A stretch of DNA of 64,000 bases from Nitrospira japonica (GTDB lineage: Bacteria > Nitrospirota > Thermodesulfovibrionia > UBA6902): the NCBI GenBank assembly GCA_020723105.1, contig DYJL01000002.1:1-64000 (forward strand), in the 5' to 3' direction. This document shows positions 4,470 to 64,000 of this stretch, piece by piece. Position 1 is the first letter of the stretch. The number at the start of each line of letters is the position of its first letter. The position numbers and the translations under genes were made by a program. The notes beneath the pieces were generated by a model. It was not told the origin of the DNA and did not search any database. It worked only from the letters and a program-made list of their open reading frames with translations.

Positions 4470-5453
4470 TTAATGTAAATAGACCAGGTTTAAACCAAGG
4501 GTCTTACCGAGTGCATTATTGCTTGACTTGAAATAGCCGCCTCCCGGAAGGTCGCTGCTATAGGATACTATAGTTTGAATATTAGGTTTTATATTAAATT
4601 GAAGCCCTATGGTTCCATTCAAGGCAGTTTGTTCCAGTGTCAATGTGTCCAGTATAAGTTTGTTCCTTGTCTTTGAACCCGCCTCTTGTCCTGTTGTTAA
4701 ATATCTTTCATACATATCATCTGAAATATCTGCATTGCCTACAGAATCTTTCCAGTTCAGGCTTCCTGTTAGTGACAGCCATGAAGTAATGGCATATCCG
4801 CCTGCCAGTGACATCTTGAACTCATCTGAAGGCTTGAATGTCTCAGGGTCAAATTCGTCATTTTCAAATCTGTATTTGTAACCTACATTAAATACAGCAT
4901 AACCCTTGCCAAGTCCTCTGCCGAATTGCAGCAATAATGTTGTGTCATACTGACCATCACCCTGACTCAAATTAAATAGAGGATGCTCGTAGTTATATGC
5001 TTCAGGTATTTTCACTTCTCCTTGCAAGGACATGATTACACCCGTGCCTAAAAGGTTAGGGGAGAGATTGTACCTTAAACCCAGAGTAATGTCACCTATT
5101 CCGCTCGGTCCATCTTCTCCTGCATATTTCATTGTATCATTTGAACGCTGCCAATCCCACCAGACAGATCCTACTACAGTGAGTTTGTCTGTAAGACCAT
5201 ATTCACCATAGTAACTGATTTTTGTGGAGTTGAATTCTTCTTGCTGCTCTACATAGGTACTGCCACTTGTGGTTGTTAATTCATTATGGTCATCGTTATG
5301 TAAGGTGGTAAATTTTTCGGTTGTTTTATAGTAGCTCAGTCCCAATGAATTGTAGGAGTGTCCTTTAGCTTGTGTCCATGCTGCATAAGACGTTTGCGAG
5401 GTAAAAACAAAGAGAACTGCCAATAAGAAAATCAAAACCATGCTTTTTTTCAT
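4470..5453 (-). CDS. Predicted outer-membrane beta-barrel protein
   Basis: A 327-aa protein with a clear Sec signal peptide (MKKSMVLIFLLAVLFVFTSQ, cleavage after about residue 24 in SYAA). The mature part is made of alternating-hydrophobic strands with aromatic girdles, such as KISYYGEYGLTDKLTVVGSV and TLLLQFGRGLGKGYAVFNVG, and ends in an aromatic-containing strand (LGLNLVYLH). It resembles the loosely defined transporter-like barrel families found near lipid or aromatic metabolism genes. Function is not determined. It sits between envelope glycosyltransferase genes, which fits an envelope role. Length and lack of long plugs argue against a TonB receptor. Confidence 0.75.
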   Translation of the reverse strand: MKKSMVLIFLLAVLFVFTSQTSYAAWTQAKGHSYNSLGLSYYKTTEKFTTLHNDDHNELTTTSGSTYVEQQEEFNSTKISYYGEYGLTDKLTVVGSVWWDWQRSNDTMKYAGEDGPSGIGDITLGLRYNLSPNLLGTGVIMSLQGEVKIPEAYNYEHPLFNLSQGDGQYDTTLLLQFGRGLGKGYAVFNVGYKYRFENDEFDPETFKPSDEFKMSLAGGYAITSWLSLTGSLNWKDSVGNADISDDMYERYLTTGQEAGSKTRNKLILDTLTLEQTALNGTIGLQFNIKPNIQTIVSYSSDLPGGGYFKSSNNALGKTLGLNLVYLH

Positions 5454-5516
5454 AACGTTGACTCCTTTTTTTATAAAGTTTAATTTTACAATAAAAAATA
5501 ATATGGTTTTTTCTTG

Positions 5517-14576: not shown

Positions 14577-14669
14577 GTTCTATTATATCCACAGCTTGTG
14601 CAGATTGCACAGATTTTTTTTGAGCCTTAATTAACTCAAGAAGGGTTGTTGCAGGAAGCAGTGTGGACC

Positions 14670-17219
14670 CTAAATCTGCTTTAATTCCGGGGCAGGTTTC
14701 CCTATATGGTATCCCTGGGCAAAATCAAGTCCCATAAGTTCAACAACGTTAAGAATTTCCTCATCCTCAACATATTCAGCAACAGTCTTGATGCCAACTT
14801 GTGCAGTAAATGTGGCAATGCTGTTTACTATGGCCTTATTCACTTCATTTCCGCTTCCAATTATGTTCCTTATAAAATCGCCTTCGACTTTTATAAAGTC
14901 AATGGGGAAGAGTTTTATATACTGGAATGAAGAAAATCCGGACCCAAAGTCATCAATTGCAAATTTGAAACCTTCAAACTTGAGATCCAGAACGAATCTC
15001 TCCAGGAGAGTAAGGTTTCTTACAGTATCCCGTTCTGTTATTTCAAAGACCACCCTTGACGGGTTTATATTATAATTTCTTACCATGTTCCGGATATTCG
15101 GCAGGAACTCGGAGAATATCAGGGCCTTCGGCGATATATTAATGAACAGGTTGCCGGCATAATTCATCTCCGATGCCTTTATAAAAACTTTTTCCATAAG
15201 TATGGAATCCATCTTGTTTATTACCCCGATGTCAGTTGCCAGATCAATAAACTCTGCAGCAGTCATTGTTTTATCGTCAAGCTCAATCCTCATGAGAGTC
15301 TCGTACGCCTCAATCTTCTTGGTTTTTACGTTCATAATAGGCTGAAAATGCGGGATGATTCTCTTTTCATCTATGGCGTTCATGATTATAATGTTCTTTT
15401 CGCTTATATGTTTAAAGACATCAGCTATTTCTTCAGAAGTCGGGATAACAATCCTGTCTTTTCCTGAGGATTTTGCACTGCCTACCATATTGTCTGCGAG
15501 GAGGAATAAGTCTCTTGGCGAGCTGGCATGATTGGGGAATACAGCAATACCAATGGAGACCGTGGCCTTTACAATAACCCCGTCCGGCGCTTTAAGCGAG
15601 AATTCTTTTATGGCTTCCTTAATCCTTTTTGCAACAAGGAAGGCATGCTCTTCATCAGAATCCAGAATTATGCCTGCAAATTCATCCCCGCCATATCTTG
15701 CTACTATATCTTCTTTTCTGAAAATGTCTCTTACAGTGGAACTGACGCCCTGAAGAAATTTATCGCCAAAGATATGCCCGTACACATCATTTATAACTTT
15801 GAAGTTGTCAATGTCAATCACTAACACCGAGAATTTATAGTTGTGTCTCTTCGCCCGTTCTGCTTCATAATCCAGTAGTTCCCAGAATACCCTCTGGTTG
15901 AAGAGGTTTGTAAGGGGGTCTCTCGTTGCGTAATATTCAAGATCCCTTGTGTATTTATATATGGCCTTTACAGAACCGACAACATTCAGCAATGTTGTAA
16001 GGACCCCTTCTATCACAAGCGCCCTTGTAGGGTCAAAAGAGAGGTCTACATTGACTCCGATCCCGATGATTCCGCCAATCCTTGGAGAGTCGAGTATAAG
16101 GGTTTTTGTCTGCATCTCCAGGGTATCCTCATTAAGTTCTGGTAAATTGGCTAACGGAAGCACGACATTGTGGACAATATTTAATCCGTTCAGATTCCCG
16201 AAGTAAGGATGCGACATGAGTTTCAGTTTTATTATTCTCTCAGTGGTTTCTCTGGTGTTTTGGGAAGGAGTATTTCTCCAGAATATTTCGATATCATAAG
16301 TCTCGTCATTCATTACAAACAGGGAGAAAAGACAATAGGCCTCCATTATCCTGTTAATCTCTATCAGTATATGTTTAATGTGGTCTTTCCAGTCTTTTAC
16401 CAGTTCAGAAGTTATTATGAATTTCTCAAGCAGTCTTATCTCAAATTCCAGAATGTCTTTGTCTATTGCGGTTTCCCTTAGTCTTAAAACCGTTTTCTTT
16501 AATCCTTCAAAGAGGGTGTTGAATTCTCTGAAAGTAAGGTCCACATCGTTCATTGCAAGGAGTTTGAGATCTTTTACGCTGTTTATGCTTTCTATCCTTT
16601 TTTGCAGCTTGCTTACGGATCTCGTTATCTTTCTGGAGACTATTCCGGAGACGATCAGGGCCCCAAGTATTGGTACAGGAAAGATCAACAGCAGAATCAT
16701 CTGGATCTTTTTGTTGCCCTCACTAATAGTAACAGACAAATCATTTGTTATATCTATAATTCCAAGGACGTCGCCTGTGCTGGCATTTGTATGGCATGTA
16801 AGACACTCTGTTTTGGCTTTCAGGGGATATATATATCTTATAGTGTTATCTGTTTCCAGGGCCTTCTCATCGCCGGTATGAAAAACCTCAAGCGCCTCTT
16901 TATCCATAACAGCCTGCTTGATCCTTCCATGAGACTTCTCAACTACCTCGCCCCGAAATACCTCTACAGAATAATGTGCCTTCTTAAACAGCTCCCTGTT
17001 GCTCTCCAAAACGTCTTTTACTTCATTTCGGTTCCATCCCTTTTTCATTACATGAAAGATGGTGTTAGAGGTTGTGTCAGCAATATTTTTTGATATGTCT
17101 TTGGCTTCAGTCCTTACATTATTTCCGTTCATGTAGGAGATAGCAAAATATACAATTGAGAACATGGTTACAGTCCCAATTATCGTTCCTACAACTATGA
17201 AGTTCTTTAATCCTTTCAA
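14670..17219 (-). CDS. Membrane c-di-GMP enzyme: heme-binding periplasmic sensor, GAF-like, GGDEF and EAL domains
   Basis: An 849-aa signalling protein. A first helix (residues 8-28) is followed by a periplasmic domain resembling DUF3365/Tll0287-like sensors with a c-type heme motif CLTCH at residues 139-143, then a second helix (173-195), a HAMP-like linker and a GAF-like region (about 260-415). GGDEF lies at residues 510-514, with an RKED inhibitory I-site (501-504) five residues before it. The C-terminal EAL domain reads ETL at 640-642 instead of EAL, but keeps NIS, EITE, DDFG and the late AEYVE motifs. It may both make and degrade c-di-GMP in response to redox state or a gas ligand. The start is TTG. 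It appears monocistronic. Confidence 0.88.
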   Translation of the reverse strand: MKGLKNFIVVGTIIGTVTMFSIVYFAISYMNGNNVRTEAKDISKNIADTTSNTIFHVMKKGWNRNEVKDVLESNRELFKKAHYSVEVFRGEVVEKSHGRIKQAVMDKEALEVFHTGDEKALETDNTIRYIYPLKAKTECLTCHTNASTGDVLGIIDITNDLSVTISEGNKKIQMILLLIFPVPILGALIVSGIVSRKITRSVSKLQKRIESINSVKDLKLLAMNDVDLTFREFNTLFEGLKKTVLRLRETAIDKDILEFEIRLLEKFIITSELVKDWKDHIKHILIEINRIMEAYCLFSLFVMNDETYDIEIFWRNTPSQNTRETTERIIKLKLMSHPYFGNLNGLNIVHNVVLPLANLPELNEDTLEMQTKTLILDSPRIGGIIGIGVNVDLSFDPTRALVIEGVLTTLLNVVGSVKAIYKYTRDLEYYATRDPLTNLFNQRVFWELLDYEAERAKRHNYKFSVLVIDIDNFKVINDVYGHIFGDKFLQGVSSTVRDIFRKEDIVARYGGDEFAGIILDSDEEHAFLVAKRIKEAIKEFSLKAPDGVIVKATVSIGIAVFPNHASSPRDLFLLADNMVGSAKSSGKDRIVIPTSEEIADVFKHISEKNIIIMNAIDEKRIIPHFQPIMNVKTKKIEAYETLMRIELDDKTMTAAEFIDLATDIGVINKMDSILMEKVFIKASEMNYAGNLFINISPKALIFSEFLPNIRNMVRNYNINPSRVVFEITERDTVRNLTLLERFVLDLKFEGFKFAIDDFGSGFSSFQYIKLFPIDFIKVEGDFIRNIIGSGNEVNKAIVNSIATFTAQVGIKTVAEYVEDEEILNVVELMGLDFAQGYHIGKPAPELKQI

Positions 17220-51993: not shown

Positions 51994-53376
51994 ATGAAAG
52001 ATGATTTTAAAAGCGATGAAAGTCAACTGCCGCAAGATGAAGAAGAAACCCCAAATGTTTACTCTCGCAGTCATGCTGATGGTGAGACTAAGCTTAGCCG
52101 TAGGACGTTTTTAGAACTTGCTGCGGTTGCAGCGACAACATCTGCTCTCCACAGCGGGTGTGCAACGCTGGCGGGCTTGGGGCAAACCGGTCCTGCGATC
52201 GCTCACAAATCAGCGGTCACTGCACTAGCGGTCAATACTGCTGGCAATTTGCTGGCTTCCGGCGATAAAGATGGTACCCTTAAGCTATGGCAGTTACCCC
52301 AAGGCGTGCTTCTAAACTCCTGGGAGGGATATAAGTCCACTATCTCTGACCTGACCTTTCCCCTTATGGAGGATGAGCTGTGGTCGCTCAATTCATACGG
52401 CACCCTGAAGCGTTGGCACCTGCCTGACTGCAAGGAATCCATTGGTGGGGCGTCCATGTCAGGGATGCAGTTATTTGCAGTTCCGAGTTCGGCTGACTGG
52501 TATGCCTTACGAACAACTGCCGGGGATATGGAACTCCGCAGCCAAACAACGGGAGAGAAGCTGTTTTCACTAACAGGTTTTAACGATACCGTCAATGCGT
52601 TGGCTGTGACTTCGGATGGGCGCCTCCTACTGGCTGGCGGAGCTAATGGAAATTTGGGCCTCTGGATTGACCCTGCTGGCGACAAATCTCTACAGATAGT
52701 CAAGTCAGGTCCCTCAGCGGTATCAGCCTTGGCTATCTCTTCAGATGGCAAACTGGCGTTAAGCGCTCATGCTGATGCCCAGTTACGCACCTGGCAAATG
52801 CCCAAGATGCAACCTGGAGCTGTGTACCAATCCAACCTCGGCAAACCATTTTGCGTTGCCATCAGACCTCAAATGGACCTGTTTGTAGTTGGCTCAGAGA
52901 AACCCGAGATCGGGTTATGGAAGCTATCCCCTGCGGTGGTGGAGGCCCAAATTTTGATGGGACATTCGGCGGCAGTGCCAGCCACGGTTATTACACCGGA
53001 TGGAACGCTGTTGATCTCCGGTAGTGAGGACAAGACAATACGGCTGTGGTCACTGCCTGACGGCAAATATCTGCGGAACCTAGTGGATATGTCAATCAAC
53101 TATAAATATATCGAGGGGACGTCCTACAAAGGTACGGATGTTTATGGACGGACCATCACCTATACGCTTCCGTGCGGTTCACCTATTCCGCCTGGTGCGG
53201 TTTGCACCTGCAACTGTGTCCCGGGCGCGATGACCATTCCTAGAAATAACTCTCAGAGATACGATGCGAGGGGCTACTGCACGTGTGACCTGATTTGTAC
53301 GTGCAATACTGTCTGCACGTGCCAAAGTGTCGGCCGTGGTAGAACGTACTATATTTCGTACTGGTATCCTAATTGA
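51994..53376 (+). CDS. Tat-exported WD40 beta-propeller protein with Cys-rich C-x-C tail, copy 1
   Basis: A 460-aa protein. ATG 51994 follows AAGGAGG at 51981-51987. The N terminus is charged, then SRRTFLELAAVAA (about residues 33-45) is a twin-arginine signal. HSGC shortly after could be a weak lipobox. From about residue 65 WD40 blades follow, with recognisable GDKDGTLKLWQLPQG and GSEDKTIRLWSLPDGKY. The last 70 residues are a tail: LPCGSPIPPGAVCTCNCVPG, then YCTCDLICTCNTVCTC and GRGRTYYISYWYPN. The six Cys of the last cluster form three CTC triplets spaced three residues apart. The tail looks like a radical-SAM substrate core carried on a folded leader, or a metal-binding site. It is followed by a truncated copy of the radical SAM gene. 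Confidence 0.85.
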   Translation: MKDDFKSDESQLPQDEEETPNVYSRSHADGETKLSRRTFLELAAVAATTSALHSGCATLAGLGQTGPAIAHKSAVTALAVNTAGNLLASGDKDGTLKLWQLPQGVLLNSWEGYKSTISDLTFPLMEDELWSLNSYGTLKRWHLPDCKESIGGASMSGMQLFAVPSSADWYALRTTAGDMELRSQTTGEKLFSLTGFNDTVNALAVTSDGRLLLAGGANGNLGLWIDPAGDKSLQIVKSGPSAVSALAISSDGKLALSAHADAQLRTWQMPKMQPGAVYQSNLGKPFCVAIRPQMDLFVVGSEKPEIGLWKLSPAVVEAQILMGHSAAVPATVITPDGTLLISGSEDKTIRLWSLPDGKYLRNLVDMSINYKYIEGTSYKGTDVYGRTITYTLPCGSPIPPGAVCTCNCVPGAMTIPRNNSQRYDARGYCTCDLICTCNTVCTCQSVGRGRTYYISYWYPN

Positions 53377-53472
53377 AGGATGTCTATTTTATTGAGTTCA
53401 ACGGGCGGTATCTCATCTATCGTCCGCTGAAACGTTTGGCGTTCATTGGCAATCAGGCTCTGATTAACTATA
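53272..53472 (+). repeat. 201-bp perfect repeat, copy 1 (Cys-tail and radical SAM start)
   Basis: The bases are identical to 55771-55971 throughout. They encode the last 34 residues of the WD40 protein tail and the first 33 residues of the radical SAM protein, across the shared stop/start overlap. Outside the block the two WD40 genes are clearly diverged. This is a sign of recent gene conversion or duplication limited to the tail/maturase junction. Confidence 0.95.
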
Positions 53473-53501
53473 CAAATAATCACGAACCAACGGCAAGTTA
53501 A
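53373..53501 (+). pseudogene. Truncated radical SAM peptide maturase remnant
   Basis: TTG 53373 starts a 42-codon frame whose first 33 codons are identical to the radical SAM gene at 55872 (MKDVYFIEFNGRYLIYRPLK and onward to INY). It then diverges into TNNHEPTAS and stops. The next bases (attcaaggttcggat, 53502-53516) again match the intact gene at about 56256-56270, so about 280 bp appears replaced or lost. No SAM or SPASM Cys motif remains. It overlaps the WD40 stop in TTGA, as in copy 2. Confidence 0.85.
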
Positions 53502-53525
53502 ATTCAAGGTTCGGATAATTAGGCA

Positions 53526-54059
53526 CTATTTTTTGCAGTTTTGATTCAGGGTCTCTAATCTTTGCTTGGCTTCTTCATTTAAAGGGTATCGTTTGAGGAA
53601 GTCTTCATAGGCGTAAATGGTTCCTATAGACTTTGCTTTGTCAAAATACAGCCTTTCTATTTCCTTACGTGCGTTTGCACTGAATTCACTCCCCGGATAT
53701 TGTTCTAGGAATTTTTCATATGCGGATATGGTTCCTTTAGACTTTGCTTTGCCGTAATGTAACCTTTCTATTTCTTGACGTGCGGTTGCACTGAATTTAC
53801 TCCCCGGATATTGTTCTAGGAATTTTTCATATGCGGATATGGTTCCTTTAGACTTTGCTTTGTCGAAATACAGCTTCTCCAGTTTTCGTTTTGCTTCTCC
53901 ATCAAACTCGCTCCCCGGATATTGTCGTAAGAAGTTTTCATATGCATAAATGTTATTTGCTTTTTGCGCCCTTTCCCACGCCATGCTCGCGCAACCGATA
54001 AGGCTTAAAAGGATAACAAACATCATAAACCATATAGCGATTTTCAGCAGTTTAATCAT
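53526..54059 (-). CDS. Lipoprotein built of four ~36-residue helical repeats
   Basis: A 177-aa protein with a lipoprotein signal (residues 1-22, lipobox LIGC). It then holds four 34-36 residue repeats of form Y-x-x-F-L-x-x-Y-P-G-S-x-F with a following (A)R-x-x-I-E-x-L-x-F-D-K-A-K-S (e.g. YEKFLEQYPGSKFSATARQE). They resemble TPR/Sel1-like or YfiO-type helical pairs. Two central repeat units are almost identical at DNA level (108-bp period), showing recent expansion. It runs opposite to the flanking WD40 genes and sits inside the duplicated segment. A periplasmic scaffold role is plausible but unproven. Confidence 0.75.
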   Translation of the reverse strand: MIKLLKIAIWFMMFVILLSLIGCASMAWERAQKANNIYAYENFLRQYPGSEFDGEAKRKLEKLYFDKAKSKGTISAYEKFLEQYPGSKFSATARQEIERLHYGKAKSKGTISAYEKFLEQYPGSEFSANARKEIERLYFDKAKSIGTIYAYEDFLKRYPLNEEAKQRLETLNQNCKK

Positions 54060-54495
54060 GTTACTTCTCCTTTCTGCCTAAATATGAGGTCTTTGATGTG
54101 AAGACCATGTAAAGAACGATTCCCCGTAGTCAACGGATTTAAAAATTGATTGATTATTAATAGATAAACCAAAATATTTTTTTTAAAACAGAAATATCAT
54201 ACGAAATTGTACACTGCTTTTTATCTTAATTCAACAACCATTTCATATAGATTTTTACGTGAGGCAACAGGTAGATAATGAATTCCTCTTCCTCTGTCAC
54301 GCCCTCGCCCGAAACTATCAAGGAGGCGAACAAAAACTGTCGAGGAAAACTTGCATGATAGGGGAGTTTTTGTTAAACTTGAAGGCACTCAATCCCAAGT
54401 AGTTTTTTTAGGGTTAATAGTAAGTTCTTTATAGTAATCAGCAACATATGGAAGCCTGTTAAATAGCACCTGGAGAAACAGGAAAAGGAGCAGGT
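54060..54495. other. Intergenic region between the lipoprotein and WD40 copy 2
   Basis: The gap is 436 bp and divergently flanked. The lipoprotein promoter and RBS (aggagaagt) lie at its left end, on the minus strand. A possible plus-strand promoter, ttgcat about 54351 and ttaaac about 17 nt later, precedes WD40 copy 2. The motif acatatggaagcctgtt near 54444-54460 resembles the end of the MITE-like repeats (atatggcagcctgtt), which may be a relic. No ORF of merit is seen. Confidence 0.4.
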
Positions 54496-55875
54496 ATGAA
54501 AGACGATTCTAAGCACGACAAGAGTCGAACCCCTCAAGACGAAGAAGAAACCCCGGCCGTTTACTCATGCAGTAAGAATGATGGCGAGTCCAAGCTCAGT
54601 CGGCGGACTTTCTTAGAGCTGGCTGCAGTGGCGGCGGCAACAGCTGCGCTTCCCTTTTCAGCCCTTGGAAAGGAAAAACAGAAAAGCATACCAATTGCGC
54701 ATGAAAAGGAGGTTACAGCGCTGGCCGTAAACTCTACAGGGACGTTGTTAGTCTCCGGTGATAAAGGTGGCGACATCAAGCTTTGGCAGTTGCCAGAAGG
54801 AACGTTATTGCATTCCTGGAAGGGGACTCATAAGCCTGTCTCGGACCTCTCTTTTTTTCATGGGGAAGATGCACTATGGTCACTCGATACTGAAGGTGCT
54901 CTTAAACGATGGGACTTGCCAGATGGGAAGGAAATTTATAACGCCGCTTTTACAGGTTCTCGCCATAATAATGGGTCTGAACTTGAGATACCCTGTGGGA
55001 GTGAATGGTATGCCATCATATCGAAAAATGGCGACGTCGAAATCCGCGGCAAAAGTACGGGTGAAAAGTCGCATACATTAAACGGGTTGAAAGATGAAGC
55101 AACAGCTCTTGCCGCGACATCTGATGGCCGTTTGATAATGGCTGGGGGAAAGCACGGAAGTGTCGGCCTCTGGACTGATATAATACAAATGCAGACGGCA
55201 GGAATGCACATGGAAACCGTATCAGCCTTGGCTATATCTTCAGATGGCAAACTGGCGTTAAGCGCTCATGCTGATGCCTTGTTGCGCACCTGGCATATGC
55301 CTGAATTGCGTGCAGGAAAAACATTCACATCCACTCTTGGCAAACCTTTCTCTGTTGCCATCCGGCCGCAGTTGGACCTAATTGTGGCAGGCTCAGAGAA
55401 GCCCGAAATTGGGTTGTGGAAGCTGAATGGCGAGACTTCAGAGCCCCAGTTGCTCAAGGGACATGCAGATGCAGTGCGCGCCACGGTCATCACACCCGAC
55501 GGCTCCCTGCTGATCTCTGGCAGTGATGACAAAACCATTCGCCTGTGGTCACTACCTGATGGCAAGTATTTGCGTAACCTCTTAGATCTTTCCATAAATT
55601 ATAAACATGTCGAGGGCATAGGCTATGAGGGCAAAGATATCTATGGACGGACCATCACCTTCACACTTCCCTGTGGTTCACCCATTCCTCCCGGTGCAGT
55701 TTGCACATGTAACTGTGTCCCTGGCGCCATGTCCATTCCCAAAAATCACACTCAAAATTATAATTCCCTTGGCTACTGCACGTGTGACCTGATTTGTACG
55801 TGCAATACTGTCTGCACGTGCCAAAGTGTCGGCCGTGGTAGAACGTACTATATTTCGTACTGGTATCCTAATTGA
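54496..55875 (+). CDS. Tat-exported WD40 beta-propeller protein with Cys-rich C-x-C tail, copy 2
   Basis: A 459-aa homologue of copy 1, starting at ATG 54496 after AAAGGAG. The Tat motif is SRRTFLELAAVAAA (about residues 35-48), here without a lipobox (ALPFSALGKEKQ), so export without lipid anchoring is likely. WD40 blades follow (GDKGGDIKLWQLPEG, GSDDKTIRLWSLPDG), and the same tail with LPCGSPIPPGAVCTCNCVPG, YCTCDLICTCNTVCTC and YYISYWYPN. The stop overlaps the radical SAM start in TTGA. Only this copy retains the intact enzyme. The Cys pattern, C-terminal position and coupling suggest a substrate of that enzyme, with modification before Tat export of the folded protein. Confidence 0.88.
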   Translation: MKDDSKHDKSRTPQDEEETPAVYSCSKNDGESKLSRRTFLELAAVAAATAALPFSALGKEKQKSIPIAHEKEVTALAVNSTGTLLVSGDKGGDIKLWQLPEGTLLHSWKGTHKPVSDLSFFHGEDALWSLDTEGALKRWDLPDGKEIYNAAFTGSRHNNGSELEIPCGSEWYAIISKNGDVEIRGKSTGEKSHTLNGLKDEATALAATSDGRLIMAGGKHGSVGLWTDIIQMQTAGMHMETVSALAISSDGKLALSAHADALLRTWHMPELRAGKTFTSTLGKPFSVAIRPQLDLIVAGSEKPEIGLWKLNGETSEPQLLKGHADAVRATVITPDGSLLISGSDDKTIRLWSLPDGKYLRNLLDLSINYKHVEGIGYEGKDIYGRTITFTLPCGSPIPPGAVCTCNCVPGAMSIPKNHTQNYNSLGYCTCDLICTCNTVCTCQSVGRGRTYYISYWYPN

Positions 55876-55971
55876 AGGATGTCTATTTTATTGAGTTCAA
55901 CGGGCGGTATCTCATCTATCGTCCGCTGAAACGTTTGGCGTTCATTGGCAATCAGGCTCTGATTAACTATA
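55771..55971 (+). repeat. 201-bp perfect repeat, copy 2
   Basis: Identical to 53272-53472. It covers the final 34 codons of the WD40 tail and the first 33 codons of the intact radical SAM gene. The next base (t against c) ends the identity abruptly. Confidence 0.95.
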
Positions 55972-57197
55972 TAGGGCGGCGGACTATTAATTCCCATACT
56001 GCACCAGCACACCCGGATATAGACTTATTTCTTGCGCGTACTGGATACTGGGAACCCGCTGTATCGCCGGAACCCGGGGACAGACCTGAACCAGCGCGTC
56101 CGACCATGGCTGTGCTCCTTATGACAAATCGATGCAACCTCGCATGCACCTATTGCTATGCATCTGCCGGCAGCCATGCACCAGTGGACATGTCCTGGCC
56201 TATTGCACGGGTGGTGATCGACTCTGCCACCGATAACGCGCGTATCAATGGTGATTCAAGGTTCGGATTATCTTTTCATGGCGGGGGGGAGCCTACACTC
56301 AACTGGTCCATTCTAACGGCTGCCGTGAGCTACGCACGAGCACAGCGTTTACCATGCGATGTTTCGCTAGCCAGCAACGGAATATGGACAACTCAAATAA
56401 GAAATTTTATCTGTAGTAACATAGACTCGGTAACGTTATCATTCGATGGTGTTAAGGCTGTTCAGGATGCTCAGCGTCCTCGCCGTTCCGGTAGCGGATC
56501 TTTTGAAAGTGTCATGCGTAGTATACGAGCGCTCGATACTTCCGGAGTTGAATACGGCATTCGTATGACGGTGATGCCTGAATCTTTTGAGCGATTACCG
56601 GAAAGTCTGCAATTTCTTTGCAACGAGACTGGCGTCCGAGCTATCCAAATTGAAGCGTCTTTTACCAGCTCCCGCGGTGTCTATACTGACATATCCTCCG
56701 AGGATGCAGACCGCTTTGTGACGTCCTATATATTAGCAGAAAGAATTGGCTTTCAACATGACGTTGTTGTTTCTTATTCTGGAGCACGTCCCTGGGTAAT
56801 TTCTGACACGTTCTGTCAAGCCCCTTCTAAGGCTATCATCGCCACACCTGAAGGGCGTATGGTTGCCTGTTTCGAGGCAACAGGAGAAAACCATCCTTAT
56901 TCCAAAGAGTTTACGATAGGTCACGTGACTCCAAACGGTGTCGAAACTGATCCTGATGCTTACAATAAATTCCAGCAGAGCCGGGAAATTCGCCGTGCGA
57001 AATGTGGCGAGTGTTTCTGCTATTGGCACTGTTGCGGAGACTGCGCATCTAGGGCTATGATATCAAAAGCGCCGACATCCAAGCGGTGTCATGTTAATAG
57101 GGAAATCACAAAAGCTCTTATTGCCGACTACATTGAACGAGGCAATGGTATTTGGATGACAAGGGATTCAGTCCCCGTGATTAATGAGGTAACGTAA
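55872..57197 (+). CDS. Radical SAM/SPASM peptide-maturase-type enzyme
   Basis: A 441-aa protein. TTG 55872 overlaps the WD40 stop (TTGA). An N-terminal segment (residues 1-75: VYFIEFNGRYLIYRPLKRLA) may serve as a recognition or adapter part. The SAM motif C-x3-C-x2-C is in NRCNLACTYCYASAG (about residue 90). GGEPTLNW and the DGVKAVQ segment follow the barrel. The C-terminal SPASM region has Cys in FCQAPSKA, VACFEAT, KCGECFCYWHCCGDC and RCHVN, which is enough for two auxiliary [4Fe-4S] clusters. Such enzymes form thioether, C-C or other links in peptides, or modify residues. The coupled WD40 tail is the most likely substrate; the reaction is unknown. Confidence 0.9.
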   Translation: MKDVYFIEFNGRYLIYRPLKRLAFIGNQALINYIGRRTINSHTAPAHPDIDLFLARTGYWEPAVSPEPGDRPEPARPTMAVLLMTNRCNLACTYCYASAGSHAPVDMSWPIARVVIDSATDNARINGDSRFGLSFHGGGEPTLNWSILTAAVSYARAQRLPCDVSLASNGIWTTQIRNFICSNIDSVTLSFDGVKAVQDAQRPRRSGSGSFESVMRSIRALDTSGVEYGIRMTVMPESFERLPESLQFLCNETGVRAIQIEASFTSSRGVYTDISSEDADRFVTSYILAERIGFQHDVVVSYSGARPWVISDTFCQAPSKAIIATPEGRMVACFEATGENHPYSKEFTIGHVTPNGVETDPDAYNKFQQSREIRRAKCGECFCYWHCCGDCASRAMISKAPTSKRCHVNREITKALIADYIERGNGIWMTRDSVPVINEVT

Positions 57198-57323: not shown

Positions 57324-59303
57324 TTAAACATGTTTAGCGAGTGTAGTCAAATACCTGTGAAAAGCATCTTCAGATATGTCTTTGCCCGCAGCTGTTGCTG
57401 AACGATTGGTATATCGTTCGGGTATAGCCAGAGACAATAATCTGTTTGAAATTCGTATTGCAAGACATTGATCGATAAGCTCAGTCAGGGCGTTATGTAA
57501 TAAAACTGAAGATGTCTGGATACCTTGTACCGATAGCTGATCAGGGATCGTGTCTATCTCAATCGGGTCTTCTGCTAATCTGTATACATGCGCTGAAAGG
57601 CCCTGAAGAATAATATTATGAGATACTGCACAGGAACGGGTATCCATAAATACCAAAGTCTCAGCGTCATGTTCCTTGACTGTCAGTTGTGGCGGGGACG
57701 GGCTTAAATATGCTCTTCTCCACTCCTCAGATGCAACTATAAGACAGCGAATTCCGTCCGTCTCACGATTCATTTCAGGGTAGAACTCAGGCCAAGACTC
57801 GTCGCGAAAATAATAAGCAAGTTGGCTAATAGTCGATGTCGGAAGAGGGTAAATAACTTCATAATTATTATACGGCACTGGATTTAAGCCGTAGCGATCT
57901 GGATTTGTCATGTACGCACTGAATCTCTGTAACGTGATGCCATGGAGACTCTTAGGTGGCTGGAGGTGATATAGCAGTGGTAACAAAGAGGCTGTCTTAC
58001 TGTACCAGTCATCCGAATCGCCGGGAAACCCTGTAAGCAAGTTCCATCCGACGATTATGCCGAACTCAGCAGCATGTTTAAGTAAAGCAATATTTTGAAG
58101 AACTGTAGAACCCTTGTTTATGAGTGTAAGGAGCCCGTCGTGAAGGGATTCAATGCCTGCCTGTACATGGCGAACGCCGGCTGAAAACAGCAGGCGCGCC
58201 TGATTGCGTTGCATAATGGGACGAATTTCGTAGAAAAGATCATAAGTCGCCTGCTGGCGCTCAAGCTCTGGGAAAAGTGTTTTCAAATAGCTTGGTGGCA
58301 AAACGTTATCAGCCATGGCGAAATTTCGCAGGTTGTAACGGTTTGTCAACGTTTCCAATTCAGTGCATACCCGTGCCGGATTTTTAGTACGGTAAGCATG
58401 ATTCCCATGGTTTAACCCACAGAACGTACAGGCATCTGTATTGCTCCACCAGCAACCACGCGATGTTTCCATGGGAAGCGTGCTATGAATAAGCAGGCGG
58501 TCAGAGTCTGAAAACCGTGCAAGAGACTTGAAGTAATCGTCATAGTCAGGGATCGGGAGCGCATCAAGGTCAGATACAGTCACACGCGATGCAGTGCTAT
58601 TAGTTGATGTGCAATGAGATGCCATATCACGAGTAAGGACACCTTCAGGAAGCTGTTGTTTCAGTCCTGCGCGCCCCCATTTCATCACCGATCTACACAG
58701 AGACACAACTGTTTCGTCAGCCTCACCTGAACAGATGGCATCAACCCAGGGGAATACCCGGACAACAGTGGCTCCCATTTCACCTTCCACATTGGCCCCT
58801 CCTATCAGTGTCACCACCTCGGTATCCAGTTCCCGAACCCGGCGCAAAAGAGCCAGAGACGACACCTGTTGAAAAAAGCTGGAGCTACAGCCGACGATTT
58901 TCGGCTGCTTTGCCAAAAGGTCACGAGCCAACTGGTCGATGAAGGCGGGTGCAGCCTTTCGCATACGCATAAACTCCTTTCGAAGTGCAAGAACGAGTGG
59001 CAAAGGGTCGCCATGGGAATAGGCTCGGGCAAAAGGGACGATACACTCCTCCAAGTATCGGTCATCGCAAGGCGAGAAATCCGGAAACGCTGCACTGGCA
59101 AAAACCCACTCGCCTATGAGCGAAGTGGGCCACATACGTAGTGGCAGACTAGAAGCATGAATACCAACATGCTGGGCAAAGATAAGGTTGGCATAGATGA
59201 TATCAGCAGATATACCATTCCTCTTCAGAGCACCCTTGAGCAAGCCTAATGCCAGCGAGGGGCGTTCAATATCACAGAATGGCATTAGGACGAGCGAGAT
59301 CAT
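57324..59303 (-). CDS. B12-type radical SAM RiPP maturase, rSAM_ocin_1 (RiPP maturation radical SAM protein 1) type
   Basis: A 659-aa protein. It begins MISLVLMPFCDIERPSLALG; a B12-binding-like N-terminal part is followed by the characteristic loop RGCWWSNTDACTFCGLNHGN (about residues 284-303), in which the cluster Cys are C-x7-C-x2-C, a spacing typical of this family. The barrel continues with QAGIESLHDGLLTLINKGST and WNLLTGFPGDSDDWYS. The last 150 residues form a variable domain. Relatives methylate carbon in ribosomally made peptides and sit next to precursor genes. ATG 59303 overlaps the stop of the 65-aa gene (ATGA). Confidence 0.9.
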   Translation of the reverse strand: MISLVLMPFCDIERPSLALGLLKGALKRNGISADIIYANLIFAQHVGIHASSLPLRMWPTSLIGEWVFASAAFPDFSPCDDRYLEECIVPFARAYSHGDPLPLVLALRKEFMRMRKAAPAFIDQLARDLLAKQPKIVGCSSSFFQQVSSLALLRRVRELDTEVVTLIGGANVEGEMGATVVRVFPWVDAICSGEADETVVSLCRSVMKWGRAGLKQQLPEGVLTRDMASHCTSTNSTASRVTVSDLDALPIPDYDDYFKSLARFSDSDRLLIHSTLPMETSRGCWWSNTDACTFCGLNHGNHAYRTKNPARVCTELETLTNRYNLRNFAMADNVLPPSYLKTLFPELERQQATYDLFYEIRPIMQRNQARLLFSAGVRHVQAGIESLHDGLLTLINKGSTVLQNIALLKHAAEFGIIVGWNLLTGFPGDSDDWYSKTASLLPLLYHLQPPKSLHGITLQRFSAYMTNPDRYGLNPVPYNNYEVIYPLPTSTISQLAYYFRDESWPEFYPEMNRETDGIRCLIVASEEWRRAYLSPSPPQLTVKEHDAETLVFMDTRSCAVSHNIILQGLSAHVYRLAEDPIEIDTIPDQLSVQGIQTSSVLLHNALTELIDQCLAIRISNRLLSLAIPERYTNRSATAAGKDISEDAFHRYLTTLAKHV

Positions 59304-59497
59304 AGCAACTGAATTTTCCCCATTCGGTCAAGTGACAGATCAAGGTAAGCCAGACAATCCTGGAGACTATAAGCAATGTCTACAGGGATTAAGGTCTCAT
59401 AAGATTTGTTTAGTGCGAGCCATGCGGTAACCGGTATCCTAATGCCAACCCCCGGGTCTTTATCAAACAGTATGCTCCTTTGAGTACTAATGTTCAA
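59300..59497 (-). CDS. Small 65-aa protein between the glycosyltransferase-like and B12 radical SAM genes
   Basis: TTG 59497, after GGAG, overlaps the preceding stop in TTGA and the downstream ATG overlaps its stop, so it is translated in a chain. It starts MNISTQRSILFDKDPGVGIR and runs on as IPVTAWLALNKSYETLIPVD and SLQDCLAYLDLSLDRMGKIQ. A longer frame from 59569 overlaps the upstream gene by 76 bp and is unlikely. I recognise no family. Its size and place next to an rSAM_ocin_1 enzyme make it a candidate precursor peptide or accessory recognition protein; it has only one Cys and no Gly-rich leader. Confidence 0.65.
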   Translation of the reverse strand: MNISTQRSILFDKDPGVGIRIPVTAWLALNKSYETLIPVDIAYSLQDCLAYLDLSLDRMGKIQLL

Positions 59498-60336
59498 GAA
59501 TCCATCTCCAGCGTCTGCATCATCTCCGTGTGCCTGCGTAATAATTCGGGGTCTTCTAGTTCTAACCATTCGCGTGGGCAGTTTTGGAAGAAAGCGTCAA
59601 AACTCATCAATATATACCGTCGCCAGTCAAAAAAAGCGGAAGGCATGTCTGTGCGTGGTTGAGTTGCGACCGTGTAAAGGTGCAAACCGCCAATATGTAT
59701 GTGCTGAGGAAATGATGACAGGAAGTGATGTGTCCCGTCTTCTCCATCCACTGGAAACGTACAGGTCATATTCATTGTTTCCAGTTCTTCTCTTACCTGC
59801 ACCATAGTGTCTTTCAATGGGATTGTAAGATCCCCCTCATGCCTGTGGAGATCAGGTCGCCGAGCATAGACCTTAGGCGTAAACGGAACGGGGTCAAACG
59901 ACGACAATCCTTCTGGCCAACGTAATGGTGAAAGCCAGTATGCAGGCTGTGTTATTCCGCAGCCGGGCAGTGGACTCCGAGTACAGAGACATACGTCACT
60001 ATTCGAGAAACAGTTGTCAGCCATCTCAAACCAGTGCTCAGCCGGTGTCAGTAAAAATGTATCATGATCAAAAAACCATACACCTTCATAGTTGCGGAGA
60101 GCGTCCTTCGCCAGGTACTCGCGCATAGCGCTGTCGTCAGCCAGAATGTGGGGGGGATACAGGAGCTCCTTGACGCTTTTGGGGAGGAATTTACGAAATC
60201 GTTCCATCTGTACCTCTGATTTGCCGGCTTGCATCACGTAGATTTCACGCTCGGGAGCGAATGCCTGCAGCCGGTGCAGACAGATCAGTCCCAAGCAATT
60301 CGACCACCAAGAAGTGACAAAGACACTGCTACGCAT
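59494..60336 (-). CDS. GT-A-like nucleotidyl-diphospho-sugar transferase-type protein
   Basis: A 280-aa protein beginning MRSSVFVTSWWSNCLGLICL at ATG 60336, chosen because GGAGAGGATC lies just upstream; a longer reading from 60402 would overlap the previous gene by 74 bp. The middle contains YEGVWFFDHDTFLLTPAEHW, in which D-H-D resembles the metal-binding D-x-D of GT-A enzymes, and HRLQAFAPEREIYVMQAGKS. It ends MQTLEMDS. A sugar-transfer or tailoring role on a peptide is possible. It is one of the linked genes and is not a recognised subfamily. Confidence 0.6.
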   Translation of the reverse strand: MRSSVFVTSWWSNCLGLICLHRLQAFAPEREIYVMQAGKSEVQMERFRKFLPKSVKELLYPPHILADDSAMREYLAKDALRNYEGVWFFDHDTFLLTPAEHWFEMADNCFSNSDVCLCTRSPLPGCGITQPAYWLSPLRWPEGLSSFDPVPFTPKVYARRPDLHRHEGDLTIPLKDTMVQVREELETMNMTCTFPVDGEDGTHHFLSSFPQHIHIGGLHLYTVATQPRTDMPSAFFDWRRYILMSFDAFFQNCPREWLELEDPELLRRHTEMMQTLEMDS

Positions 60337-60820
60337 ACTGATCCTCTCCTGGTGAGGGTATGCTTGAGAGACGGGGAGGGTCAGTTGGATGGTAGACCTC
60401 ATGCAATGCCAGTGTCAGAAATGCTTCGCGTACGATGGATACTCCCTGCCTATGTGACATTCCGAGTTCGATGGCAAGAGTTGCTGCCACTTGCTCAATT
60501 GTCCGAACTCCGTTGAACAGCCTCGTAGCTGCACATTCATCTGGACTGAGGGACATCATACCCTCCTGACCTGAATCATCCCGATAGTAGATACCATCTT
60601 CGCAAACGTACACTCGCCACCCCTGACGCAAAACAGGCACCATACGTAACAGTTCCGTTTCTGGAATGTTTTTAAGGGCACTCAACGGAACGCGGCAAGA
60701 AATGGTTTCTTCCTTGCCTGGATGTGATGGCTCACGTGCAAACCACTTAAACGGTTGAGTAAAGAACTCTCTGCGAGTTATCACTTTATATCTCTGTCTC
60801 CATCCGTTACTTGTACTCAT
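60329..60820 (-). CDS. PqqD-like / RRE winged-helix protein with an N-terminal extension
   Basis: A 163-aa protein. The first 65 residues are unusual and basic (TRREFFTQPFKWFAREPSHP). The following part (residues 65-150) is PqqD-like: GWRVYVCEDGIYYRDDSGQE, then SPDECAATRLFNGVRTIEQ and AFLTLALHEVYHP. PqqD-like domains bind leader peptides and present them to radical SAM enzymes. The stop overlaps the next gene by 8 nt. It may be the recognition subunit of one of the two SPASM enzymes. Confidence 0.65.
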   Translation of the reverse strand: MSTSNGWRQRYKVITRREFFTQPFKWFAREPSHPGKEETISCRVPLSALKNIPETELLRMVPVLRQGWRVYVCEDGIYYRDDSGQEGMMSLSPDECAATRLFNGVRTIEQVAATLAIELGMSHRQGVSIVREAFLTLALHEVYHPTDPPRLSSIPSPGEDQYA

Positions 60821-60839: not shown

Positions 60840-61967
60840 TCATTTTGAAGCCAGAGCAGTTGAGGAATCCGGACGCAGTCTCAGGGCCCGCCGAGCCCTG
60901 CAGCCTCCACTACACAAGCCCTTTGCCAGGTAGTCACAATGGGTGCATTCGCGGTGAACTCCAACTGGAAGCACCGGCAATAACTCTCTGTCGAAAGACT
61001 TCACCAAATTATAACGATTCCCTTCCAACGGCAACGGAAGGCGGCCAAATCGCGAAAGAGCATAGCATGAGATGCAATCACCTTCCACCAGGATATCGAT
61101 AACAGGATTACATCTTACCCCGACTGCCTCCCTCAGATTTTCAGCTCCCATCGGATCTTGTCCAGCAGCAAAATCATTCGTACAGGCCATATGCGAGTCT
61201 TGACTGTCATGTATGTTAGCAGAAATCCCAAGTCTCGTTGTAAAATCTTCCTGTTTGGATAGCTTGCTGTGGTCAGCATCTCTAAGCATGAACAAATCAT
61301 AATGAGAAGTTACAAAATCCCTGGAAAACATACAAGGTGTGATACCACAATCGAAACCGACATTTATGCCCAACTTATCCCCAAATGCTACAAGACGTTC
61401 CAAAATGGGAATTACACGAGGACCGCGAAACACAAAATAATCATTTACTCCACCCCAGATTGGATGGGCAACTCCTACCCGAAGCGTCCGGCATACATCG
61501 TATTCATTTACCCAGTCGAACAGGAAAGTAGGATCTTGTTCATATGATCGGATATTTACTCCCAGCGTAATCTTTTCACCCAGAGCCTTGCATAACTTTC
61601 GCTGCTTTTTCACTAAAACTTCTGCATCGAAGGAGGGATCAGCCGCATTCAACACCACCGAAAAATTATCCGCAGGTAATCGCGCCATATACTCCTCTAC
61701 TGGTTGAGGAACCATACCTCCACTGAAAACTACCACGCGAAAGGCTCTTTCAAAGGCAAGATTAACATATTCAATAAACCGAGGATGCTCGGTAGGTTCC
61801 CCGCCTAAAAGCCGCACCTCCGGAAAGTTGGAGCGCTCAAGAAACTCCAGCGCAGCTTCATAGATTTCTGGCGACATGTCATCTCCCAACTTCCTGGCCA
61901 ACTCGTGTTTGGCAAAGCAGTAAGTACAGTAACGCTTACATCGTCTAGTTATTGACAAGTTTGCCAT
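60840..61967 (-). CDS. Radical SAM/SPASM protein, second in the island
   Basis: A 375-aa protein from ATG 61967, preceded by GAGGAG; an upstream reading from 62009 overlaps the PqqD-like gene. The SAM motif is RRCKRYCTYCFAKHE (C-x3-C-x2-C, near residue 10), unusually close to the start. GGEPTEHPRFIEYV follows. The C-terminal SPASM Cys are in RCNPVIDILVEGDCISC and CTHCDYLAKGLCSGGC. A stretch around residues 255-295 (HDSQDSHMACTNDFAAGQDP) looks inserted. It is next to a PqqD-like gene on each side. Confidence 0.88.
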   Translation of the reverse strand: MANLSITRRCKRYCTYCFAKHELARKLGDDMSPEIYEAALEFLERSNFPEVRLLGGEPTEHPRFIEYVNLAFERAFRVVVFSGGMVPQPVEEYMARLPADNFSVVLNAADPSFDAEVLVKKQRKLCKALGEKITLGVNIRSYEQDPTFLFDWVNEYDVCRTLRVGVAHPIWGGVNDYFVFRGPRVIPILERLVAFGDKLGINVGFDCGITPCMFSRDFVTSHYDLFMLRDADHSKLSKQEDFTTRLGISANIHDSQDSHMACTNDFAAGQDPMGAENLREAVGVRCNPVIDILVEGDCISCYALSRFGRLPLPLEGNRYNLVKSFDRELLPVLPVGVHRECTHCDYLAKGLCSGGCRARRALRLRPDSSTALASK

Positions 61968-61968
61968 G

Positions 61969-62226
61969 TCACTCCTCTGAAAGTAATCCTTTCTGTTTCC
62001 AAGCCGCAAGAGTCTTTTCGACCTCCTGCATTGCAGCCTGCCTGCTGACTGACATGAGGATAATCATCAGTTCGGTGGCATGGGACAGACTGTAGTTGCC
62101 ATTAGCGACTAGAGCCCATAACCCGGCATGGGGATAGGGAATCGAATGACATATCTGCCCATCTCGGCTATTCAAAGTTACTCCCCTTGTCTCGACAAAC
62201 CACGTTAGCTGTTCTGATGGTTTCAT
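61969..62226 (-). CDS. PqqD-like protein (RRE)
   Basis: An 85-aa protein whose ATG 62226 overlaps the preceding stop in ATGA. The PqqD pattern is clear in YPHAGLWALVANGNYSLSHA, AMQEVEKTLAAWKQKGLLSE and the early GVTLNSRDGQICHS. It lacks the extension of the other PqqD-like protein. It probably delivers the leader peptide to the adjoining radical SAM/SPASM enzymes. One nt separates its stop from the next ATG. Confidence 0.78.
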   Translation of the reverse strand: MKPSEQLTWFVETRGVTLNSRDGQICHSIPYPHAGLWALVANGNYSLSHATELMIILMSVSRQAAMQEVEKTLAAWKQKGLLSEE

Positions 62227-63620
62227 AGTTTCATCCGTGCTCCCTCTCTCCATGCTGTAATACGATCATCAGGATTGTTCGCGACAGCTTGCATAGCAGA
62301 TATATTTTCTATAAATGACTCTGCCGCCATCGCTCCATCCAATTTACGCAACAGGCGTCCTGCAGTAATGAGACGGGTTGCCCGACAGCGATCATCGTAC
62401 TCTATTGAACAACCTGGAGGAGTTTGTTCAATATGGCACCCTCCGGCGCATGTGTGGCGGCAGAAGCACCTGACACAACGCGGTTTGGAATCCAGAAGGC
62501 CAGCAATAGCATCAAGTTTCTCTTGTTCGATCACGGGCCCGGACACCAGATCCATCCGCCCTACCACCGGATCAAGCCCACGACTCTTCCAACGCTTAGT
62601 TTCAAGATAACAAGCTGTCAGTAGTCCCTCAGGATTTAGCATTAACGTCCCCCGTCCCATAGGACATGAGGTATCGCGAGGACTACACAACTCCGACGGG
62701 CCGTGGACAACGTTGACACCATAAGATGCCACCAGTGTTTCTGCTTTCAATACACCTGCAGCAAAGCGGTAGGGATCCGGAGGATTCAATCCGGCAATCT
62801 GCGACGACCTGTTCGGAACCATCATCTCGAAACAAAGAACATCGAACTCGAACTCCGAGCAGAAATGAGACGCAATGGCCGTCATTGAGTCTACGGAACA
62901 ACTGGTAACGCACGTCCGCAAACTCACTTCGATGGGGAACCGGCTAAGTTGGCGGATGTTAGCCGCAATGGTAGAGTACGTGCCACGGCCATCAGTATGC
63001 CGGCGATTAATATCATGAACCGATTCGCCTCCATCTAACGAAATGACAACGCTGTCCATATAATCTCCGATCAATGGAATCACTGTAGTATCAAACAGCC
63101 CGTTAGTAGTGATCTCAAACCATGGGATTAAACCTGTTCGGGCACAAACCATGCGGGCATAATGCACAACGGCTTCTACACATGGCCGAGCTATCAGCGG
63201 CTCACCGCCAAAGAAGTGAATACGCAGCACGGCTGGCAACTCGGAAGATCGTTTGGCTACAGTATCATCAATCAGCCTGATAGCCAGAAGGGGATCGAGC
63301 GTTGTTCCGTTATTGTCTGTCTTGCCAAAATCACAGTAGACACAGTGCATATTGCAAGATCGGGTTGGTATGATGACTAATTTATCCTGTCCCGATGGGG
63401 AGTGGTCGGAAGACCCCTGTACCTCCACCAGATGCCGCCAGAGATCTTGTATAGTTTCAGAGGCAGCAGTATCACCAACTGCGTATTTTGCCACAGCATC
63501 AACGGCCGCGCGATTTACCATTGCACTTTTCAAATCGTGTGAAGATACAAGCATCCATTTCTCATTAATGGGTATTGCATAGATAGCTGCCGAAATATCA
63601 TCAAAAGCAGAATCCCTCAA
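62223..63620 (-). CDS. Radical SAM/SPASM peptide-maturase-type protein
   Basis: A 465-aa protein from TTG 63620, overlapping the preceding stop in TTGA and preceded by GAGGTG; a longer frame from 63686 would overlap the Cys-rich upstream gene by 70 bp. The SAM motif is TRSCNMHCVYCDFGKTD (C-x3-C-x2-C), followed by FFGGEPLIARPC and SLDGGESVHDINRRH. C-terminal SPASM Cys lie in LCSPRDTSCPMGRG, TACYLETKR, RCVRCFCRHTCAGGC and CSIEYDDRC. The N-terminal 75 residues (AIYAIPINEKWMLVSSHDLK) may be a recognition domain. It is the first intact enzyme of the minus-strand cassette. Confidence 0.9.
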   Translation of the reverse strand: MRDSAFDDISAAIYAIPINEKWMLVSSHDLKSAMVNRAAVDAVAKYAVGDTAASETIQDLWRHLVEVQGSSDHSPSGQDKLVIIPTRSCNMHCVYCDFGKTDNNGTTLDPLLAIRLIDDTVAKRSSELPAVLRIHFFGGEPLIARPCVEAVVHYARMVCARTGLIPWFEITTNGLFDTTVIPLIGDYMDSVVISLDGGESVHDINRRHTDGRGTYSTIAANIRQLSRFPIEVSLRTCVTSCSVDSMTAIASHFCSEFEFDVLCFEMMVPNRSSQIAGLNPPDPYRFAAGVLKAETLVASYGVNVVHGPSELCSPRDTSCPMGRGTLMLNPEGLLTACYLETKRWKSRGLDPVVGRMDLVSGPVIEQEKLDAIAGLLDSKPRCVRCFCRHTCAGGCHIEQTPPGCSIEYDDRCRATRLITAGRLLRKLDGAMAAESFIENISAMQAVANNPDDRITAWREGARMKL

Positions 63621-64000
63621 GGGTTCACCTCGTTCCTTTGTCCGTTCTTGTAGACTCTTACATTCAACATCCTCTGCTTGTCCCAAATTTCATTACAATT
63701 TCCCCACTTGGTGGAAACCCATGCCTTATCGGCTGCCTCAACTATCATAGCTTCCATAAGCATCCGATTCACCAGGCACCGGAAACTCCCCCCCTCATAT
63801 TCGCGAAAAGAAGACGACTCGACGGACTCCTCCAACTTACAACGGTCGGGACAACCAAACGTGCACTGGCAACTGCACAGGCAGTTGTAGCAACCAATCG
63901 GCCGTTCGGAGCAACGGATGATCAGGGAACGGATATATTCCTTATCAATCCGGAACATCCTGCGGGCCGAATCAAGTGATCCGATCTGCACTCGTCGCCG
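63617..64000 (-). CDS. Cys-rich protein running off the window (partial)
   Basis: The frame is open from the window edge to TGA at 63617-63619 (128 codons); a GTG at 63991 is only a nominal start. Residues just after the edge include a dense cluster, CYNCLCSCQCTFGCPDRC, with alternating C-x-C and C-x2-C spacing that resembles the tails of the WD40 proteins. The rest (YEGGSFRCLVNRMLMEAMIV, STKWGNCNEIWDKQRMLNVR) has no family I know. The stop overlaps the radical SAM start (TTGA). It may be a precursor or a Cys-cluster protein; its N terminus is missing. Confidence 0.6.
   Translation of the reverse strand, partial: RRRVQIGSLDSARRMFRIDKEYIRSLIIRCSERPIGCYNCLCSCQCTFGCPDRCKLEESVESSSFREYEGGSFRCLVNRMLMEAMIVEAADKAWVSTKWGNCNEIWDKQRMLNVRVYKNGQRNEVNP

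Follow-up and report, generated by a model that had tools for sequence, protein, structure and literature searches.

Tat-exported WD40 propellers with CxC-rich C-terminal tails as likely protein substrates of co-encoded radical SAM/SPASM enzymes

Comparative analysis of a 64,000-nucleotide stretch of a Nitrospira japonica genome (contig DYJL01000002.1, positions 1 to 64,000; hereafter the window) points to a RiPP-like maturation on the scale of a protein, in which the likely substrate is a whole Tat-exported WD40 propeller with a disordered C-terminal tail. Among the attributes of RiPP systems, a leader-like segment, a tail and co-encoded enzymes are present, while the predicted substrate is a whole protein and no leader peptidase was recognised. 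If this reading is true, radical SAM maturation is not confined to small peptides but also reaches full-length beta-propellers exported by Tat, in about twelve phyla.

Results

Two WD40 proteins with Cys-rich tails

The following features of the window are located on its plus strand:

51994-53376, plus strand: WD40-1, a Tat-signal WD40 propeller with a CxC tail (Pfam WD40, 101.5 bits; translation)
53173-53373, plus strand: tail of WD40-1, CGSPIPPGAVCTCNCVPG...CTCDLICTCNTVCTC...YWYPN (translation, alignment of relatives)
53272-53472, plus strand: putative recombination tract, 201 bp, 100% identical to 55771-55971 (sequence comparison)
53373-53489, plus strand: remains of another type A radical SAM gene, about 39 aa (82% identity to type A residues 1-39; 201-bp identical block)
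54496-55875, plus strand: WD40-2, a Tat-signal WD40 propeller with a CxC tail (TIGR01409, Pfam WD40, AlphaFold)
54496-54600, plus strand: candidate leader, before the RR motif of WD40-2 (ETPAVYS...SKLS; pre-RR segments of 31 relatives compared)
55672-55872, plus strand: tail of WD40-2 and predicted substrate, spanning residues 393-459 (P/C positions invariant across 31 and 26 relatives)
55872-57197, plus strand: type A radical SAM/SPASM enzyme with an N-terminal RRE-like domain (motif alignment, predicted fold)

The first-pass annotation of this DNA had described two WD40 proteins with SRRTFL Tat signals and a Cys-rich tail, and both were recovered at those places by Pfam WD40 (101 bits for WD40-1 and 91 bits for WD40-2) and the translations. 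They have the sequence SRRTFLELAA in common, and the twin-arginine motif with a hydrophobic stretch expected of Tat substrates is present (SRRTFLELAAVAAATAAL); WD40-2 reaches the cut-off of the TIGR01409 Tat model (16.8 vs 16.7 bits), and the position of RR (once RK) is constant among relatives. Both end in the pattern GSPIPPGAVCTCNCVPG...CTCDLICTCNTVCTC...YWYPN, laid out as CTCNC followed by three CTC triplets at a six-residue period. The five CxC motifs of each protein lie within its last 70 residues, a number reached in none of 20,000 shuffles of either sequence, and no other ORF of at least 60 aa in the window contains more than one C[TSV]C. AlphaFold places the propeller of WD40-2 at approximately residues 61-392; pLDDT falls below 50 in residues 1-60 and over most of 393-459. 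The tail is predicted to be disordered, and its low confidence suits a substrate that is flexible and accessible.

The likeness of the two tails requires a qualification. The same tail is indeed present in both proteins, as first described, and yet the resemblance overstates its conservation: a 201-bp block that spans the latter half of the tail plus the enzyme start is identical in the two copies, whereas the genes are about 70% identical elsewhere. Because of this identity, which points to gene conversion or recombination, the two tails of the window are not independent evidence. The remnant downstream of WD40-1 indicates that this gene once also had a type A gene directly behind it. In the simplest history, a WD40-enzyme pair would have been duplicated, one enzyme lost and the tail ends homogenised. 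The remnant, the identical block and the further radical SAM enzymes described below had not been recorded in the first-pass annotation.

The adjoining type A enzyme

As proposed earlier, a SPASM radical SAM gene overlaps the stop codon of WD40-2: type A starts with the TTG at 55872, which overlaps the WD40-2 TGA as TTGA. The protein matches Pfam PF04055 (54 bits), and contains both CxxxCxxC and the SPASM motif CX2CX5CX3C...C; among 33 relatives the CxxxCxxC motif (CNLACTYC; C88/C92/C95) and seven SPASM cysteines (C315, C333, C378, C381, C387, C391 and C406) are invariant, features by which type A is assigned to the radical SAM/SPASM peptide maturase superfamily. Its predicted structure (pLDDT 88.6) comprises an N-terminal domain, a radical SAM barrel and a SPASM domain. 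The N-terminus is predicted to contain strands at 5-9, 12-17 and 22-26 and helices at 28-39 and 48-56; in the model, this strand-strand-strand-helix-helix order resembles the leader-binding domain of CteB and has the layout of an RRE. The best solved match in Foldseek is CteB itself (5why, E 1e-19). Type A lies below the cut-offs of the named maturase families: 117.9 vs 340 bits for NF047865 (PapB-family; 112-137 bits for other type A and B members), 100 vs 425 for TIGR03974 (SCIFF maturase), 68 vs 453 for TIGR03906 (QhpD family) and 62 vs 350 for TIGR04115 (CXXX-repeat maturase).

Distribution of the tail and its coupling to radical SAM genes

A search of approximately 85,000 species, one genome per species, yielded 45 tail loci (44 distinct) in about 12 phyla, among them Acidobacteriota, Bacteroidota, Pseudomonadota, Armatimonadota, Chloroflexota, Verrucomicrobiota, Planctomycetota, Actinomycetota, Thermodesulfobacteriota, KSB1 and Aminicenantes. 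Since the tail was not found in 36 other genomes of the host's own family, its distribution is patchy and horizontal acquisition is probable. The closest tail (81%) is from a Desulfobacteraceae MAG. In one distant Nitrospirota genome with a tail, apparently that of scan locus L043 (a Nitrospirales MAG), a type A homologue (32% identity) precedes the WD40 gene with an ATGA overlap. The tail ORFs are nearly all WD40 proteins with an RR motif and form one similarity cluster; the match in L010 is weak and lies in an 82-aa frame. Across 31 aligned proteins the invariant columns include C393, P396, P398, C403, C405, C407 and the Tat arginine; the propeller sequence drifts, unlike the invariant tail core. 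The tail is usually terminal, and the extra stretch that follows it in L016, L017, L019 and L028 marks it as a module.

The proposal that the tail is the substrate of the adjoining SPASM enzyme draws support from the gene neighbourhoods: at least one cassette radical SAM gene lies in the stretch around the tail in 40 of the 44 loci. Type A itself is present in 35 of the 44, mostly overlapping or at no more than 300 bp on the same strand. Tails of this kind were thus not common without a radical SAM neighbour, since two of the other four loci (L034, L055) belong to genomes that carry type A elsewhere; the remaining two (L047, L051) have none at the threshold used. A full type A is missing at that threshold from the genomes of L047, L050 and L051, all draft MAGs, and in L015 the contig end truncates the enzyme. 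The enzyme gene may precede or follow the tail gene, but the coupling persists, often as an overlap. A DsbA-like thioredoxin gene adjoins the WD40/enzyme pair in L012.

When Nitrospirota were searched by the enzyme alone, four sister type A enzymes were retrieved, and in three of these four genomes the direct neighbour is a 120-aa CSC-repeat protein with neither a Tat signal nor a propeller. No CxC gene was seen near the type A relative of L093. The strongest sequence evidence for the target is that related enzymes adjoin CxC repeats on two unrelated scaffolds, and CxC is therefore probably the target of type A.

Two tail classes and the minus-strand cassette

The tails fall into two classes. 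Class I tails end in CVPV, CVPIK, CMAVRCR and similar sequences and are accompanied by type A only; L016, L041 and, in Desulfosarcina cetonica, L042 belong to this class. Class II tails end in YW[YHR]PN, and their loci can contain as many as three additional radical SAM types (B, C and D) together with the small proteins E and F. B, C or D genes occur in 12 of 14 YWxPN loci vs none of the 31 others (Fisher p=3e-9). The two exceptions are L015, at a contig end, and L034, whose genome carries the enzymes elsewhere (its assembly holds L046 and L048). An independent retrieval, in which 396 Acidobacteriota genomes were searched with type B alone, gave three new genomes, all with WD40 tails ending in YW[YH]P[NT]: two carry the full tail-A-B-C-D-E-F set, and the third has a WD40 protein ending in HYWHPN on another contig, directly followed by F-like and D-like frames read by eye. 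The same search of 291 Armatimonadota genomes returned only the two cassettes already known. In the type A tree, from which the placement of L093 was disregarded (it was entered in a wrong frame), class II enzymes occupy two separate parts; the link is thus not explained by one inheritance of type A and, judging by this tree, would have arisen more than once or been exchanged. If the overall reading is correct, the tail is a module whose end predicts which enzymes are present, and the system offers simple pairs of enzyme and substrate, namely type A and class I tails, as well as a natural series from which enzymes could be assigned to residues.

Several loci have further peculiarities. Paralogue arrays contain up to four tail proteins per enzyme set, type C in some loci carries an additional HutW/HemN-like radical SAM domain as a fusion (179 bits, a score under the cut-off), and one cassette includes a gene for YcaO (144 bits), a RiPP-type tailoring enzyme. 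Type D has a fused domain in some loci, for which a U32-like reading was dropped after Pfam gave no match.

The window contains such a cassette on the minus strand, downstream of type A:

57324-59303, minus strand: B12-type radical SAM protein of the RiPP C-methyltransferase family TIGR03975 (621 bits vs cut-off 282)
59494-60402, minus strand: unclassified 302-aa protein (no Pfam or NCBIfam match)
60329-60820, minus strand: E, RRE/PqqD-like small protein with an RRxFF N-terminus (E family HMM, 40.9 bits, weak)
60840-62009, minus strand: type D radical SAM enzyme (type D HMM, 451 bits)
61969-62253, minus strand: F, RRE/PqqD-like small protein (F family HMM, 120 bits)
62223-63686, minus strand: type B radical SAM/SPASM enzyme (type B HMM, 638 bits)
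63617-64000, minus strand: type C radical SAM/SPASM enzyme, 3' part (type C HMM, 662 bits)
about 65113-66327 of the contig, minus strand: type G, a further radical SAM enzyme preceding type C (L013:2114-3328)

The type C gene extends past the window to about 65110 of the contig (L013:618-2111), and the cassette reaches about 66.3 kb, far beyond position 57197, where the first-pass annotation had ended. Its genes nearly touch or overlap, and a promoter and terminator scan of the region gave promoter-like sites at chance level only. Type G is also present in L050 and L057, and the E family was found in eight other YWxPN loci. By their sequences, E and F look like RRE/PqqD domains, and the 302-aa protein, with its DHD motif, reads to us as glycosyltransferase-like. 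The TIGR03975 gene is counted as part of the cassette by position, since this family was not seen to be conserved in the other cassettes. With its YWxPN tail and genes for B, C, D, E and F, the window's cassette belongs, on sequence grounds, to class II.

Because elsewhere these genes are interleaved with the tail genes on one strand, we treat the minus-strand genes and the WD40/type A pair as one system. The alternative of two unrelated systems, with WD40/type A on the plus strand and a small-peptide RiPP cluster (TIGR03975, B, C, D, E, F and G) on the minus strand, would suit the opposite strands, the convergent layout in the window and the membership of TIGR03975 in a RiPP maturation family. 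We regard it as improbable: B, C, D, E and F accompany YWxPN tails in unrelated phyla, usually interleaved on the same strand, all three new genomes retrieved by type B have the tail, and the gaps checked around the compact cassette yielded no small Cys-rich ORF that could encode a precursor. Neither a precursor-releasing peptidase nor a peptide transporter was recognised in the window's cassette.

Leader segment and proposed mechanism

The first-pass annotation had cast the folded propeller as the leader recognised by the enzyme, a proposal that gained no support from the comparison. Although the propeller is present throughout the tail-protein family, its sequence is weakly conserved, and the conserved part is the segment preceding the RR motif, which keeps a near-constant distance from it (PEVYAI...WKLSRR or PEIVPV...MNRRGF) and lies outside the general Tat consensus. 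Moreover, the sister systems lack a propeller and type A has an RRE-like domain of its own, so that a propeller leader appears quite improbable; on these alignments we lean towards the pre-RR segment as the leader.

In the proposed mechanism, the RRE-like domain of type A would bind the conserved segment before RR, the tail would then enter the active site, and the CxC array would be modified in the cytoplasm. That type A acts on the tail is very probable. The CxC spacing is common in metal binding and, with the DsbA-like neighbour in L012, might suggest that the tail binds a metal or an Fe-S cluster, or forms disulfides after export, while the radical SAM enzyme has another substrate. Such a role is very unlikely given that type A relatives adjoin CxC repeats on two unrelated scaffolds, that the tail end correlates with the enzyme set and that, in contrast to the drifting propeller, the tail core is invariant. 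Non-peptide substrates are known for some radical SAM enzymes that have a barrel of this type, but the CteB-like fold with its RRE-like domain and the covariation of tail and enzymes make it highly unlikely that the enzyme produces a free small molecule or modifies the propeller, with the WD40 protein as a scaffold or sensor.

For modification of the tail by type A, the products could be non-alpha thioethers in which Cys is linked to T/S/N/D residues within C-[TSV]-C-[ND]. Its best family scores include the thioether formers PapB, SCIFF maturase and QhpD, all below cut-off, and from this similarity and the predicted fold we give thioether chemistry an even chance. Since the presence of B, C and D tracks the YW[YH]PN end, these enzymes would modify the C-terminal YWYPN, with E and F as recognition proteins; it is fairly likely that they act on the same tail as type A. 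Tat exports folded proteins, which fits a product cross-linked in the cytoplasm, and the protein would accordingly leave the cell interior already folded and cross-linked; that modification precedes export is probable.

A more far-reaching possibility, which we consider rather unlikely, is that B, C and D, together with E/F and, in the window, the B12 methyltransferase and the further radical SAM enzyme, convert YW[YH]PN into a cross-linked cap or into a new cofactor that derives from Tyr/Trp and stays bound to the protein. A CxC stem stapled by thioethers would carry this end on the exported propeller, and the whole would be a new class of multi-radical-SAM protein maturation. Biologically, the product may function as a stapled stalk, as a protein-bound cofactor or as a surface ligand.

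Comparison with known systems

The scanned proteins of types A, B, C, D and G, proteins E and F, the tail and the CSC proteins all score below NCBIfam cut-offs, and among open-licence papers nothing relevant was found on the tail motifs or on radical SAM enzymes with WD40 or Tat. The closest solved fold of type A is that of CteB, a thioether-forming RiPP maturase of the SCIFF type, which differs in having 18-19% identity to type A and a short peptide substrate. In the His-Xaa-Ser system HxsA/HxsB/HxsC, a larger repeat-bearing protein occurs with paired radical SAM maturases; its repeats are His-Xaa-Ser rather than CxC, and the HxsB and HxsC models score far below cut-off. The CXXX-repeat system of TIGR04115 likewise combines a Cys-repeat target with a SPASM-type enzyme, and the repeat differs.

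The ranthipeptide system PapA/PapB (PMC9413430) resembles ours in its repeated Cys motifs and leader guidance, and its NCBIfam family is the best-scoring one for types A and B; in contrast, its precursors are small peptides with a CX3D motif, without a Tat signal or propeller (PMC9413430). PapB, like QhpD, joins Cys to Asp/Glu side chains (PMC9413430, PMC7876137). QhpD, the SPASM-type enzyme of the quinohemoprotein amine dehydrogenase system, forms Cys-Asp/Glu thioethers in the protein subunit QhpC in the cytoplasm; an N-terminal leader of QhpC is needed, the mature enzyme is periplasmic, and a partner enzyme then modifies Trp (PMC7876137). The two systems are alike in that a SPASM-type enzyme would modify a protein substrate in the cytoplasm before it reaches the periplasm, whereas the small subunit QhpC has a 28-residue leader that is removed and the substrate proposed here is an entire WD40 protein that bears a tail and is exported by Tat. 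The maturation logic would thus be that of RiPP/SPASM systems, while we know of no precedent for the substrate or for an enzyme set of this size.

A likely second substrate family

Immediately adjacent to sister type A enzymes in three genomes, SPASM radical SAM proteins of Nitrospirota found by enzyme search alone, lie CSC-repeat proteins of ~120 aa with the pattern CSCENKP...CSCELIPV (L handles denote loci, with coordinates counted within each):

L091:7013-7414, one CSC-repeat protein
L092:4822-5196 and 5300-5659, two CSC-repeat proteins
L094:7116-7490, one CSC-repeat protein

No NCBIfam match was obtained for the two that were scanned. These proteins likely constitute a second substrate family, one that lacks the propeller.

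Neighboring genes and cassette variants

Two further features were noted on the window's contig, the second by eye:

53526-54059 (-), located between WD40-1 and WD40-2, a BamD/YbgF-like protein that resembles a lipoprotein and carries TPR-type repeats
L013:4768-17220 (about 67.8-80.2 kb of the contig), cluster just past the cassette: ClpB-like ATPase, OmpA-like and DnaK-like proteins, Ser/Thr kinase, PP2C phosphatase and FHA/sigma-54 regulator

Among the cassette enzymes, the type C SPASM enzyme carries an additional, fused radical SAM domain at L080:9382-12153 and at L083:8664-11468 (HutW/HemN-like in the latter). A YWYPN cassette contains a YcaO cyclodehydratase gene (L057:6205-7899), hinting at azoline formation in this member.

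Three propeller tails of one locus (L050:7683-8528, 13879-15213 and 15162-16556) retain the CxC arrays and YWYPN without the PCGSPIPPG element, which is therefore dispensable in some members. Bryobacterales tails (L053, L055, L059) consist of long Cys-Gly/Ser-Cys and Asp-rich repeats, and the YWYPN end is absent. At L016 and L019 the tail is internal, followed by a domain that, read by eye, appears to resemble an S74-type intramolecular chaperone.
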